In this document: one piece after another, positions 22,157 to 34,611 of the stretch | How the letters are laid out: the number at the start of each line of letters is the position of its first letter | Numbering within the stretch: position 1 is the first letter of the stretch | From: an uncultured Victivallales bacterium | GTDB lineage: Bacteria > Verrucomicrobiota > Lentisphaeria > Victivallales > UBA1829 | Reading direction: 5' to 3' | NCBI GenBank assembly: GCA_944391115.1 | Contig: CALXSJ010000030.1 | Coordinates: forward strand, 1 to 34,611 | Length of the DNA stretch: 34,611 nt | Notes under the pieces: model-generated | Database searches by the model: none | What the model was told of the DNA's origin: nothing | Seen by the model: only the letters and a program-made list of their open reading frames with translations | Made by a program: the position numbers and the translations under genes

Positions 22157-22201
22157 GAAGTTTTTCTTTTCCATCCAAGCGATTCCGCCGTTTCCTCCAC
22201 A

Positions 22202-22242
22202 GTTTTCCGCGGGCGGCATCCTCCCATTCCGCCGCGGAAAAC
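22202..22242 (+). terminator. Strong hairpin after the amidase gene
   Basis: GTTTTCCGCGGGCGG (22202-22216) pairs with CCGCCGCGGAAAAC (22229-22242) over 14 bp with one bulged G and a 12-nt loop. It starts 46 bp after the stop codon. The T-run lies inside the stem rather than after it, so it may terminate in both directions or stabilise the mRNA end. Confidence 0.5.
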
Positions 22243-22327
22243 AGTTTGGGAAATCAATTATATGTGATTCGTTTCACAGCAAAATAAAAGAAGAAAAATA
22301 AATTGTTTTTTTATTCACAGAAAATGC

Positions 22328-22355
22328 TTGACATTCTCTTTTTTCGATGTATTAT
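22328..22355 (+). promoter_or_regulatory. Orphan promoter of the structured RNA candidate
   Basis: TTGACA (22328-22333) and TATTAT (22350-22355) are 16 bp apart. No open reading frame follows, and the predicted start (22361-22363) coincides with the first base of a closing stem, as expected for a small RNA gene. Confidence 0.6.
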
Positions 22356-22361
22356 AACCCC

Positions 22362-22523
22362 ATAACCTCTGTTCTCCACCCATTCGTGGGGACGCGGGCG
22401 ATCAAAGATGATTCAAACAGAAGCACAGTTTACTCCCTCTTCTGACTTCTGTCGGCATCCATCTCCTGCACCTGCCGGGGAGCCGGGGTTATTCGACACT
22501 GCCGCGTCACCCGCGCGGCAGTG
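22362..22523 (+). ncRNA. Rod-shaped small RNA candidate, possibly 6S RNA
   Basis: The ends of the proposed core pair exactly: ATAACC (22362-22367) with GGTTAT (22487-22492). Inside, CTCC (22374-22377) pairs with GGAG (22479-22482), GCGGG with CCTGC, GATG (22407-22410) with CATC (22456-22459) and ACAGAAG (22417-22423) with CTTCTGT (22446-22452), giving a long rod with internal loops. A perfect 10-bp hairpin (22497-22506 with 22514-22523) follows and could end the transcript. A promoter is positioned to start it at base 1. A rod with a central open region is the 6S RNA shape, but I see no diagnostic primary sequence, so the 6S label is a guess. A mobile or regulatory RNA is the alternative. Confidence 0.4.
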
Positions 22524-22551
22524 CATTTCCATCCGGTCATACGCGAAATGC
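22523..22551 (+). other. Additional hairpin downstream of the RNA candidate
   Basis: GCATTTC (22523-22529) pairs perfectly with GAAATGC (22545-22551) across a 15-nt loop. It shares its first base with the preceding 10-bp hairpin, so the two are either alternative or stacked. Confidence 0.4.
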
Positions 22552-22651
22552 GCCTGACCATCCGCCGCGGCTCTGCCCCCTCCCCTTTCCCGCAGGGATT
22601 CTTTTACCGTTCCGTCATCAGAAGCGAATGAGCCCCCTGTGCAGATCACGC

Positions 22652-22677
22652 GGGCAGGACTGACTGGAAAGCACGAA
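22652..22677. repeat. Partial dispersed repeat, copy C
   Basis: This 26-bp stretch (GGGCAGGACTGACTGG onward to CACGAA) is identical at 22 of 26 positions to 22843-22868 inside copy B and also resembles the middle of copy A in the uxaC leader. Confidence 0.5.
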
Positions 22678-22713
22678 TTATAATTTACAGAGCAAATTAT
22701 TTTTTTTATTACG

Positions 22714-22838
22714 GAAAAATGCGCAAGCATTTTTCGCGGGGTCAAGGGCCCTCCGGCCCTTGGCGCGGTCCAGCGGCGAAACGCTGGGCGTGCGAAGCAC
22801 GAAATCCCCCGCCTCCGGCGGCCGGCTTGCGCAACCGG
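22714..22838. other. Run of consecutive small hairpins
   Basis: Perfect stems follow one another: GAAAAATGC/GCATTTTTC with a GCAA loop (22714-22735), CAAGGGCC/GGCCCTTG with a CTCC loop (22743-22762), CCAGCG/CGCTGG (22770-22787), CGTGC/GCACG with a GAA loop (22789-22801), CCGCC/GGCGG (22809-22821) and CCGG/CCGG (22822-22838). No coding frame explains it. The spacing of 1-8 bases between stems suggests one folded RNA or a palindromic repeat cluster. Confidence 0.65.
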
Positions 22839-22915
22839 ACAGCGGCAGAACTGACAGGAACGCACGAAGCAATTCCGGGCGATGCGGTGCATCACGGGAT
22901 TAAACTGATTTTTTT
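22822..22915. repeat. Dispersed intergenic repeat, copy B
   Basis: A 94-bp segment matching copy A (4683-4776) at the same length, beginning CCGGCTTG and ending in seven Ts. Internal GATGC-GGT-GCATC forms a hairpin where copy A has CGATG/CATCG. Confidence 0.6.
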
Positions 22916-22920
22916 AAAAC

Positions 22921-22958
22921 GAAAAAACGGGAAAGTCCCGCGGGGGATTCTTTCCCGT
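22921..22958 (-). terminator. Intrinsic terminator of the TIM-barrel gene
   Basis: Read on the minus strand, ACGGGAAAG and CTTTCCCGT form a perfect 9-bp stem followed by a TTTTTTCGTTTT tail. It lies just beyond the stop codon of the 22980-23777 gene. Confidence 0.8.
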
Positions 22959-22979
22959 TCCATGTATCGTTCCGCAACC

Positions 22980-23777
22980 TTATTTGTTGCCTGCGGCAAG
23001 TCCGTTTTCGGTCATGAACTTATAGCTCATTTCAATGGCCTTGTACATCTCCGTGTCACAGTAGTCAAGTTCCACGACGATCGTCTCGACGGAGGCGGGC
23101 GCGCTTTCGACCAGCTTCCGGATCGGAAGGGTCCCGGTTCCGAGCGGCATCAGGTCGATCTTCATGTCAAGGAGCCCGTTGACCATTTCACCGCCGCCGG
23201 CTTTCTGCTTGCAGACGCCGTCCTTCATGTGCAGGAGGATGGTTCTGTCGGCAAAAATCCTGAGCATTTCAACCGGATCCTCCGTTCCCTTGTTCGTGGA
23301 CCAGAAGGAATCGATTTCAAACTTCACGTTCGGGCAGAGTTCCGCGAAAATCTCATATTTGAGCTTTCCGTCAATGCGTTCGAATTCCCAGTAGTGGTTG
23401 TGCTGGAAAAGCGTATAGCCGTTGCGGGCGAAAAATTCCTGCATTTTGCTGGTGGTCTCGGCGGTTCTCTTGATGGCGTCAAGATCCTTGAAGTCATCGG
23501 GACCGTATCCGCAGACAATGGTCTTGAGTCCGAGCGCATCGGCAAGCTCCATGCATTCGCCGAGGTTGTTGCCACGGGCCCAGGGGGAATGGGAGGAATA
23601 GATTTTCATGCCGAGGTCTTCGACGATTTTCTTCAGCTCGGATGGCCTCAGATTCCAGAATCCGGCGGGCTCGACACCCTTGTAGCCGATTTCCGCTACT
23701 TTCTTCAAGACTGCGACAAAATCATCCTTCGCATAGTCCCTCAGCGAATAAAGCTGAACTGACAACGGTTTGAGCAT
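22980..23777 (-). CDS. Xylose-isomerase-like TIM-barrel sugar isomerase/epimerase
   Basis: 265 residues of the AP-endonuclease-2/xylose isomerase-like fold. It opens LSVQLYSLRD and contains VEPAGF near 35-40, FQHNHYWEFE near 125-133, FEIDSFWS near 153-160, LLHMKD near 181-186, PLGTG at 211-215 and VVELDYC near 234-240, giving the usual acidic and His metal ligands. Members interconvert keto- and aldo-sugars or act on inositol-type substrates; the substrate here is not deducible. AAGGAG lies just before the ATG. It is divergent from an AraC regulator, with shared repeats in the intergenic region, so it is probably AraC-controlled and monocistronic, ending at a clear terminator. Confidence 0.85.
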   Translation of the reverse strand: MLKPLSVQLYSLRDYAKDDFVAVLKKVAEIGYKGVEPAGFWNLRPSELKKIVEDLGMKIYSSHSPWARGNNLGECMELADALGLKTIVCGYGPDDFKDLDAIKRTAETTSKMQEFFARNGYTLFQHNHYWEFERIDGKLKYEIFAELCPNVKFEIDSFWSTNKGTEDPVEMLRIFADRTILLHMKDGVCKQKAGGGEMVNGLLDMKIDLMPLGTGTLPIRKLVESAPASVETIVVELDYCDTEMYKAIEMSYKFMTENGLAAGNK

Positions 23778-32011: not shown

Positions 32012-32167
32012 ATGAAAAAGTCATATAACTCCAAATTCAAAAGCCGCGTAGCATTGGAAGCGCTGCGGGGAGAATTGACGGATGCTGAGATCGCGAAAAA
32101 ATATCAGGACCATCCGAATCAGGTCCAGCGGTGGATTTCTAGGAGAAACCGGAGATTTTCAAATTGA
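32012..32167 (+). pseudogene. Truncated IS3 orfA
   Basis: Starts MKKSYNSKFKSRVALEALRG and includes the helix-turn-helix ELTDAEIAKKYQDHPNQVQRW typical of IS3-family OrfA. After codon 43 the frame runs into sequence aligned to orfB and stops at 32167 (51 codons). GGGAGGG lies upstream of the ATG. It is non-functional as a transposase because the catalytic orfB is mostly missing. Confidence 0.8.
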
Positions 32168-32499
32168 ATCAAGGGAGCCAGTTTACCAGTCCGGAGTTCG
32201 TGGCGAAAGTTTGGGATCATGGCATTCTGATCCGCATGAAGGGGCGGGGACGCTGTTTGGATCATGTAAAAAAGGGGCGCTTCTGGTGGGCATTGAAATA
32301 TGAGGACATCAAAATTAAAGAGTATATCAGCTTGCCGCAGCTCCGTTTCGGTGTTCAGCATTATGTGAATTTTTACAATTCCAGACGGATTCATTCGGCT
32401 CTCCAATATCGGACGCCGGATGAAGTCTATTTCGGAACTTGCAATCGGCATTCAATGGGATATCGTAAACCAAAGGTCTTTACACCAATCTTTTCATAA
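32168..32499 (+). pseudogene. 3' fragment of IS3 orfB (DDE integrase) with lost active site
   Basis: It encodes the C-terminal third of the rve-type transposase, nearly identical in frame to copy 2 over LPQLRFGVQHYVNFYNSRRI and YRTPDEVYFGTCNR. The second catalytic Asp (SDQGSQF in copy 2) reads LNQGSQF here, and the catalytic Glu segment DNAKMERFW reads DHVKKGRFW, so Asp and Glu are both lost. The upstream part including the first Asp is deleted. The junction with orfA lies around 32141-32155. Confidence 0.85.
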
Positions 32500-32905: not shown

Positions 32906-34031
32906 TTATATATTACAAAAATCAAGAAAAGGGATATTACTTTCGGGGATTTGGTTTAATTCATCTCGGTATTGGGCACGTATAGTTTGATTTAAGGAAT
33001 AATCATTTATTAAAAATCTTAAGCATCGACACAAAAGCGTAGTATGTCTTGGATCTTTAGAATGTTGTTCTTTTAGTGTTTTATACGCTATCTTATATTT
33101 TCCCTCAGCATAAAGTATCATACTATTTAATAATATTTTGTCTTCATTTTTTGATTTAAATTTGTTATTTATTTTTGTCATAAAATCATATGCCATTTTC
33201 AAGTTATTCCCTTCAATACAAATGACTACAGCCATAAAATATGCAGAAAAACTATTGGATCTTATTTGAATGGCTTTATCTATAGTTTCTATTGCTTTAG
33301 CTGTTTGACCTTTTTTCGTCTCACATTCAGCTTTCCGAATTAAGTAGTAAAAATTAGTTTCCCCTTCAGCTATTTTCCGCTCTTTCAAAAGATCTTCTGC
33401 ATGGGAAATTTCTCCAAGTCTAAGATAAATTCGAATTGCATAGTCAAGAATCAGGGGTGTTTTATATCTATCCATTTCAATTGCATTTTCAATCGCAGGA
33501 ACCGCATTGTCCATATCATTTTGGTAAAAATAACAGATCGCCAACTCTCTATAAATTGAACTTTCTGTACGGCCAAGCTTTTTTGAAAGCTCATAATATG
33601 CTATCGCTTTTTTATAGTCATGTTGTTTCCTAGCACAGAACCCCTGTAGATAAAACAACTCTTTTCTTGGTAAAAGATCAGGGGGATTGTCTAATATTCC
33701 CTGAGCTTTTTCATACTTTTCATCGTGGATTAAGGCTTTTATGTACAATATCAAAATAGTTAGGTTTTTAGTTATAAGCTGCATAGATCGATCACAGACG
33801 TTTATAATATAATCATATTCTTCCGCAGTATATTTCTGCCGGATGACGGCTACCAAATCCTGAAGAAACAGTATCGTTCTATTTTTTAAATAATCGTTAT
33901 CTGTGGCAAAGGCAATCTTAGCAAGTAACCGAAAAGCATTTAAATCATTATTTTTTTCTTGTATGTATACTAAAATCTTTTGGGCATAATCATTCAAATC
34001 AGCAATATTGACATCGCCATAAAGTTTTTTT
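32906..34031 (-). pseudogene. TPR-repeat protein gene, 5'-truncated by an IS
   Basis: The product is almost entirely alpha-helical tetratricopeptide-type repeats (for example ELFYLQGFCARKQHDYKKAI, YRELAICYFYQNDMDNAV, AKAIETIDKAIQIRSNSFSA), about 363 residues from the first possible start, a TTG at 33997. Coding-like sequence (KKLYGDVNIADLNDYAQKI) continues upstream of that TTG without a stop right up to the IS end at 34032, so the natural N-terminus has been lost. No good ribosome-binding site precedes the TTG. The gene is visibly AT-rich, unlike all other genes in the window, suggesting horizontal acquisition. TPR proteins mediate protein-protein contacts; the partner is unknown. A functional shortened protein cannot be excluded. 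Confidence 0.7.
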
Positions 34032-34611
34032 TGCGCCTCTCCCCTAGGTTGGACAACTTTTATTAAAAGATTGGTGTAAAGACCCTTGGTTTACTATATC
34101 CCACTGTTTGCCGATTGCAAGTTCCGAAATAGACTTCATCCGGCGTCCGATATTGGAGAGCCGAATGAATCCGCCTGGAGTTGTAAAAATTCACATAATG
34201 CTGCACACCGAAACGGAGTTGCGGCAAGCTGACGTACTCTTTTATTTTGATGTCCTCATATTTCAATGCCCACCAGAAACGCTCCATTTTTGCATTATCC
34301 AAACATCGTCCACGTCCGTCCATGCTGATCTGAATGCCATGGTTCCGGAGTTCCGTTACAAACTCCGAGCTGGTAAACTGGCTTCCTTGATCCGAATTAA
34401 AAATCTCCGGTTTCCCGTAGGAATCCATTGCCGTTTTTAACGTTTCAACACAATGAAAAGCGTCCATTGTATTCACTACGTTATAAGCCAGGACCTTGCG
34501 GCTGAACCAGTCGACAATTCCAATCACAAATGCCCGATGACCGGCAACCGCCGTGTAAGTAATGTCCGTACTCCATACCTGATTCGGACGCTCTATCTTG
34601 CATTTGCGCAG
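34032..34611 (-). mobile_element. IS3-family element, copy 2, cut by the window end
   Basis: Its terminus at 34032 reads TGCGCCTCTCCCC and then TGGACAACTT (34050-34059), matching the right end of copy 1. It is oriented opposite to copy 1. The coding part is intact as far as seen; the left end lies outside the window. Confidence 0.88.
34063..34611 (-). CDS. IS3-family transposase OrfB (rve integrase core), partial
   Basis: The 182 visible residues run from the window edge to the stop. The DDE triad is complete: Asp in WSTDITY (residue 16 of the visible part), Asp in NSDQGSQFTS, and Glu in CLDNAKMERFWW. HYVNFYNSRRIHSALQY and TPDEVY near the end are typical of IS3 OrfB. No frameshift is seen, so this copy may be active, and it is a plausible source for copy 1. 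An ATG at 34527 is internal; translation should begin upstream of the window, possibly by programmed frameshifting from orfA. Confidence 0.9.
   Translation of the reverse strand: MRKCKIERPNQVWSTDITYTAVAGHRAFVIGIVDWFSRKVLAYNVVNTMDAFHCVETLKTAMDSYGKPEIFNSDQGSQFTSSEFVTELRNHGIQISMDGRGRCLDNAKMERFWWALKYEDIKIKEYVSLPQLRFGVQHYVNFYNSRRIHSALQYRTPDEVYFGTCNRQTVGYSKPRVFTPIF

Follow-up and report, generated by a model that had tools for sequence, protein, structure and literature searches.

A probable Rex-controlled small RNA gene with C-rich loops in a genus of Lentisphaeria, a candidate functional analogue of RoxS/RsaE

The small RNA (sRNA) RoxS of Bacillus subtilis is repressed by Rex; it contains four C-rich regions and occludes the Shine-Dalgarno sequences of the ppnkB and sucCD mRNAs (PMC5419742). 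Rex senses NADH; it is bound and repressing at low NADH and is released at high NADH (PMC5419742). Our literature search returned no Rex-controlled sRNA besides RoxS/RsaE (Bacillus subtilis, Staphylococcus aureus), and no paper devoted specifically to the sRNAs of Lentisphaeria. RsaE is an Rfam family. In enterobacteria, the sRNAs Spot 42 and CyaR are controlled by CRP, the consensus of which, TGTGA-N6-TCACA, also occurs as a palindrome at the locus described here.

The locus lies in a 34,611-nt stretch of an uncultured Victivallales genome (the window; this genome is G000, and G001, G002 and G003 are the other three species of the genus, class Lentisphaeria). The RNA unit extends over about 22262-22530, from the palindrome at 22263 to the tail of a hairpin at about 22530. 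The initial annotation proposed a promoter-driven, ORF-free structured RNA resembling 6S RNA; the structured RNA is supported, whereas the resemblance to 6S is not, as there is no match to RF00013. The two upstream operator sites and the almost invariant C-rich loop had been missed. We consider it probable that the locus encodes an undescribed Rex-repressed, NADH-induced, free-standing and trans-acting sRNA that works through its C-rich loops and is functionally analogous, but not homologous, to RoxS/RsaE.

The promoter (22328-22355, + strand) comprises a -35 box TTGACA (22328-22333) and a -10 box TATTAT (22350-22355) separated by 16 bp, just as first described. It carries 11 of the 12 consensus bases and is the sole promoter-like site on the + strand of the intergenic region 22160-22980. 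Read off the alignment, the spacer is 17-18 bp in G002 and G003. Judging from the position of the -10 box, the RNA would start at about 22362, which gives a candidate sRNA of about 165-170 nt. No conserved ORF is present in any frame across the four species, in agreement with the protein-free character originally assigned to the segment.

All parts of the fold lie on the + strand. The structured rod (22362-22492) is supported by compensatory changes and by the folds of the four species. Its closing helix P1 pairs 22362-22377 with 22477-22492, belongs to the predicted fold and contains one double-change pair; the closing stem of the initial annotation, ATAACC/GGTTAT (22362-22367/22487-22492), is recovered there in the minimum-energy structure. 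The 5' strand also carries a side hairpin (22378-22393; CCCA-UUCG-UGGG in G000) that varies in sequence and length among species. Helix P2 (22394-22398 with 22471-22475) is kept, with one mismatch in G003, and three double-change pairs each are found in P3 (22406-22410 with 22460-22464) and P4 (22417-22423 with 22446-22452, ACAGAAG/CTTCTGT). The inner pairings reported earlier, GATG/CATC and ACAGAAG/CTTCTGT, likewise belong to the minimum-energy fold; GATG at 22407-22410 pairs with CATC at 22460-22463 or, alternatively, with CATC at 22456-22459. The rod ends in a C-rich terminal loop of 13 nt, UUUACUCCCUCUU (22429-22441), in which one base differs in one of the four species and which is the putative main pairing region. 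A second C-rich stretch, UCUCCUGCACC (22462-22472), is almost invariant and mostly unpaired, and constitutes a putative second pairing region. All four species share the block GAAGCACAGUUUACUCCCUCU without a single difference, even in its stem bases. Downstream of the rod, a GC-rich hairpin with a CATTTCC tail (22497-22530) is kept in all four species as the proposed terminator. Its arms, CACTGCCGCG and CGCGGCAGTG (22497-22506/22514-22523), enclose the loop TCACCCG and form the perfect 10-bp hairpin noted previously, which is also part of the minimum-energy fold; two one-sided changes occur among the four species. Since the hairpin is followed only by the U-poor CATTTCC in this genome (CATTTTT in G001), we infer rather than read off the terminator role.

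Single-sequence folding of the G000 rod plus hairpin gave z = -3.99 relative to shuffles, and of the rod alone z = -1.62. Because the rod was thus only weakly better than shuffles, the pairings first listed could not decide the matter by themselves. The G003 rod folded alone reached z = -6.4. In a blind MAFFT alignment of the four species, RNAalifold identified 5 pairs changed on both sides. When the rod was aligned by hand on its structure, 142 of 155 cells were paired and there were 8 such pairs, distributed over P1, P2, P3 and P4; both alignments thus contain compensatory changes. The consensus energy of the hand-made alignment was -62.8, compared with -28.5 ± 3.8 for 500 column shuffles (z = -9, 0/500). 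This alignment omits one A of G002 in the unpaired part beside P1, with no effect on any counted pair, and its figure leans towards the fold because the structure was in view during alignment; the blind result and the G003 fold are free of that flaw. Structure beyond chance, for which the single sequence provides moderate support, is confirmed by the comparison of species.

A search of 61 genomes, the organism's own and those of relatives, found the segment as a single copy in all four species of the genus, the other three being 92, 76 and 82% identical to the G000 segment over the aligned parts. Conservation is thus measured on four sequences, all from draft assemblies. Two further hits, L005 and L006, were discarded as short chance matches whose surroundings lack similarity. 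Except in the closest pair of species, similarity drops off on both sides of the unit, and the four species display three different gene neighbourhoods: G000 and G001 have an amidase and a sugar-isomerase-like gene next to the unit, G003 has ilvC and a sugar-binding protein, and G002 has an SGNH hydrolase and uxuA. As the neighbours differ between species, the RNA appears to be a free-standing gene. Outside the genus, model R1 returned nothing better than weak matches (18-22 bits, most of them to the GC-rich hairpin), both in 137 genomes of the order and, under laxer filters, in 36 genomes of the family, so that the RNA family was not extended. Exact loop 17-mers in unrelated GTDB genomes were rejected as chance occurrences with flanks that do not fit the model, and the RNA was not found in the viral contigs and phages searched. 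Directly downstream of the RNA, at 22681-22880, lies a dispersed composite intergenic repeat with copies 75-93% identical at other loci of G000 and also in G001 and G003; in G003, a copy is located upstream of the RNA rather than downstream. Elsewhere in the window, a TPR-like protein gene (32906-33997) sits between two oppositely oriented, integrase-like ORF pieces that resemble each other (32164-32499, + strand; 34063-34527, - strand), possibly two insertion-sequence copies.

Two predicted Rex operators on the + strand precede the promoter. The distal one, ATGTGATTCGTTTCACAG (22262-22279), is kept in all four species and ranks first in the window with 22.3 bits; the proximal one, TTGTTTTTTTATTCACAG (22303-22320), is degenerate and ranks second with 13.1 bits. 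The ranking covers the + strand positions of the window, with a matrix built from nine rex, hyd and pck sites only, the RNA sites being left out. All four species keep the two operators 41 bp apart; the proximal site ranges from near consensus in G002 (21.8 bits) to weak in G001 (6.6 bits). The upstream palindrome TGTGA-N6-TCACA, kept in all four species, occurs 3 to 5 times per genome, compared with 0 to 2 times for a reversed control (palindromes being listed on both strands). Its other promoter copies lie upstream of rex (all four species), of a NuoE/HoxE-like operon (three species) and of the gene for GTP-PEPCK (two species), while the few remaining copies fall within coding regions. The rex gene is identified by NF003995 (215 bits, cut-off 126) and by the Pfam domains Put_DNA-bind_N and CoA_binding. 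Because most of the other copies precede these genes, the palindrome is assigned as a Rex operator. The published Rex consensus is TTGTGAAW4TTCACAA (PMC2883068); the distal operator has 3 mismatches to TTGTGAA-N4-TTCACAA in G000 and is closer to it in G001, G002 and G003. Both hyd and pck likewise have a second operator, at distances of 159 bp and 79-80 bp, respectively, which makes paired sites look like a habit of this Rex regulon. The genus thereby shows a small, well-defined regulon of rex, the NuoE/HoxE-like operon and GTP-PEPCK (in G000, C5 99395-99410, C24 10291-10306 and C27 32564-32579). The RNA gene shares with these genes the operator motif, often paired, but its product is an RNA instead of an enzyme.

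Predicted Rex operators, fold and conserved loop are thus combined in one single-copy unit in all four species; promoter, operators, fold and loop are conserved, and the operator motif is identified by the genes that share it. A regulatory sRNA is indicated, because the gene carries the operators of a redox repressor and its most conserved part is the C-rich loop at the end of the rod. Transcription, Rex binding, a repressing instead of an activating effect, mRNA pairing and the physiological role are our inferences. At low NADH, Rex, as an NAD+/NADH sensor, would bind the two operators just upstream of the promoter and repress the sRNA. By analogy, the sRNA would be made when NADH accumulates, Rex being released as at its other targets (rex, the NuoE/HoxE-like operon and GTP-PEPCK). 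The rod would then display the loop and the second C-rich stretch for pairing with G-rich ribosome-binding sites, and the translation of the mRNAs concerned would change in such a way as to rebalance NAD+/NADH.

The 6S identity suggested initially, in which the RNA would bind RNA polymerase in place of a promoter, accords with the size, the rod-like shape and the closing stem, and the genome's own 6S is unaccounted for, as RF00013 has no match elsewhere in it. The RF00013 check nevertheless drew a blank here, across the whole genome and in all 119 genomes sampled from the class, whereas control genomes match, and a scan of the RNA + strand found no match to any Rfam family, even at E up to 5. 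A 6S RNA is characterized by a large central bubble that mimics an open promoter; here, there are only an internal loop of 7 x 6 nt and the variable side hairpin, internal loops are small and variable, and the conserved open part is the C-rich terminal loop. Moreover, 6S is widespread, while this RNA was restricted to one genus in our searches and its gene has the predicted operators of a specific repressor, so that we regard a 6S-like function as very unlikely. Independently of this locus, the class-wide RF00013 blank (119 genomes) means that 6S is either absent there or too diverged for the Rfam model. Equally improbable is a cis-acting leader (riboswitch or attenuator) in which the rod and the ensuing terminator-like hairpin govern a downstream gene. 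In G003, a sugar-binding-protein gene does lie about 125 bp downstream in the same orientation, but the gene that comes next is convergent in G000 as well as in G001, three of the four species differ in their neighbours, and no conserved alternative anti-terminator pairing is present. Slightly less credible still is a coding role, be it as the gene of a small protein or as a dual-function RNA: a frame with the C-terminal end STVYSL(F/Y)-stop spans the loop in all four species, yet in G003 it has no ATG, GTG or TTG start, the longer G000 frame lacks a start in G003 and is interrupted by a stop in G002, synonymous positions are equally strongly conserved, and no frame with a start kept in all four species was found. 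We attach as little weight to a CRP-type site, which would make the RNA a catabolite-controlled sRNA like Spot 42. The motif does equal the CRP consensus, and some neighbouring genes are sugar-related; as in Spot 42 and CyaR, the TGTGA-N6-TCACA site lies ahead of the promoter. However, no cNMP-binding domain was found in this genome (5% missing), while 10 of 14 control genomes match, the HTH_Crp_2 matches are weak and the one inspected reads as a GntR-like regulator. With the motif's other promoter sites at the rex, NuoE/HoxE-like and pck genes, it belongs to Rex, and the genome has neither a CRP-type protein nor Hfq among its detected genes.

The strongest competitor, although a distinctly minor one, accepts control by Rex and has the RNA act by protein binding, as a sponge or scaffold, through the almost invariant loop and the conserved stem instead of by mRNA pairing. 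The identity of the four-species block extends into the stem, beyond what a seed requires, Hfq was not found in this genome, and no conserved target emerged either from the genome-wide search with the loop or from the leaders of the Rex regulon. The former used the complement of the 13-nt loop, that C-rich region only, as an exact wobble pattern and gave matches at chance level; the latter showed no significant pairing with the RNA. In G001, a Ser/Thr kinase gene has its Shine-Dalgarno sequence covered by a 16-bp wobble match of the loop (G001:C5 52085-52097; duplex -32 kcal/mol); this match occurs in one species only and was rejected as a target, being absent from the orthologues in G000, G002 and G003. 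On the other hand, the RNA has two separate unpaired C-rich stretches with complementarity to Shine-Dalgarno-like sequence, a typical feature of sRNAs that act by pairing, RoxS among them (PMC5419742). Given the lack of Hfq, mRNA pairing would need another chaperone or none.

Under the preferred reading of a Rex-repressed pairing sRNA, the locus resembles RoxS/RsaE in having an sRNA gene with a Rex operator (here predicted, two sites by matrix), in its almost invariant C-rich unpaired regions and in lying away from rex in a central-metabolism setting (PMC5419742). In contrast, the fold is not shared, as this RNA is a long rod with one terminal loop; its two operators lie upstream of the promoter, whereas RoxS has one just downstream of the start; and the organism belongs to a different phylum, with a genome in which Hfq was not detected. 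The scan of the RNA strand against Rfam release 15 detected no similarity to RoxS/RsaE, neither at the gathering score nor with E relaxed to 5. If the reading holds, an RNA of a distant phylum that is non-homologous to RoxS/RsaE would suggest convergence. It is conceivable, at somewhat less than even chances, that Bacillota and Lentisphaerota evolved Rex-controlled C-rich sRNAs independently of each other, as a convergent NADH-sensor-to-sRNA design that tunes NADH-producing pathways, in this case without Hfq and with a tandem-operator promoter. A CRP-like palindrome may, more generally, be a Rex operator in genomes without CRP. The alignment of the four species can serve as the seed of a new RNA family. 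If the proposed circuit is correct, the link between Rex and sRNAs would extend from one case to a distant phylum, and the circuit would be immediately testable.
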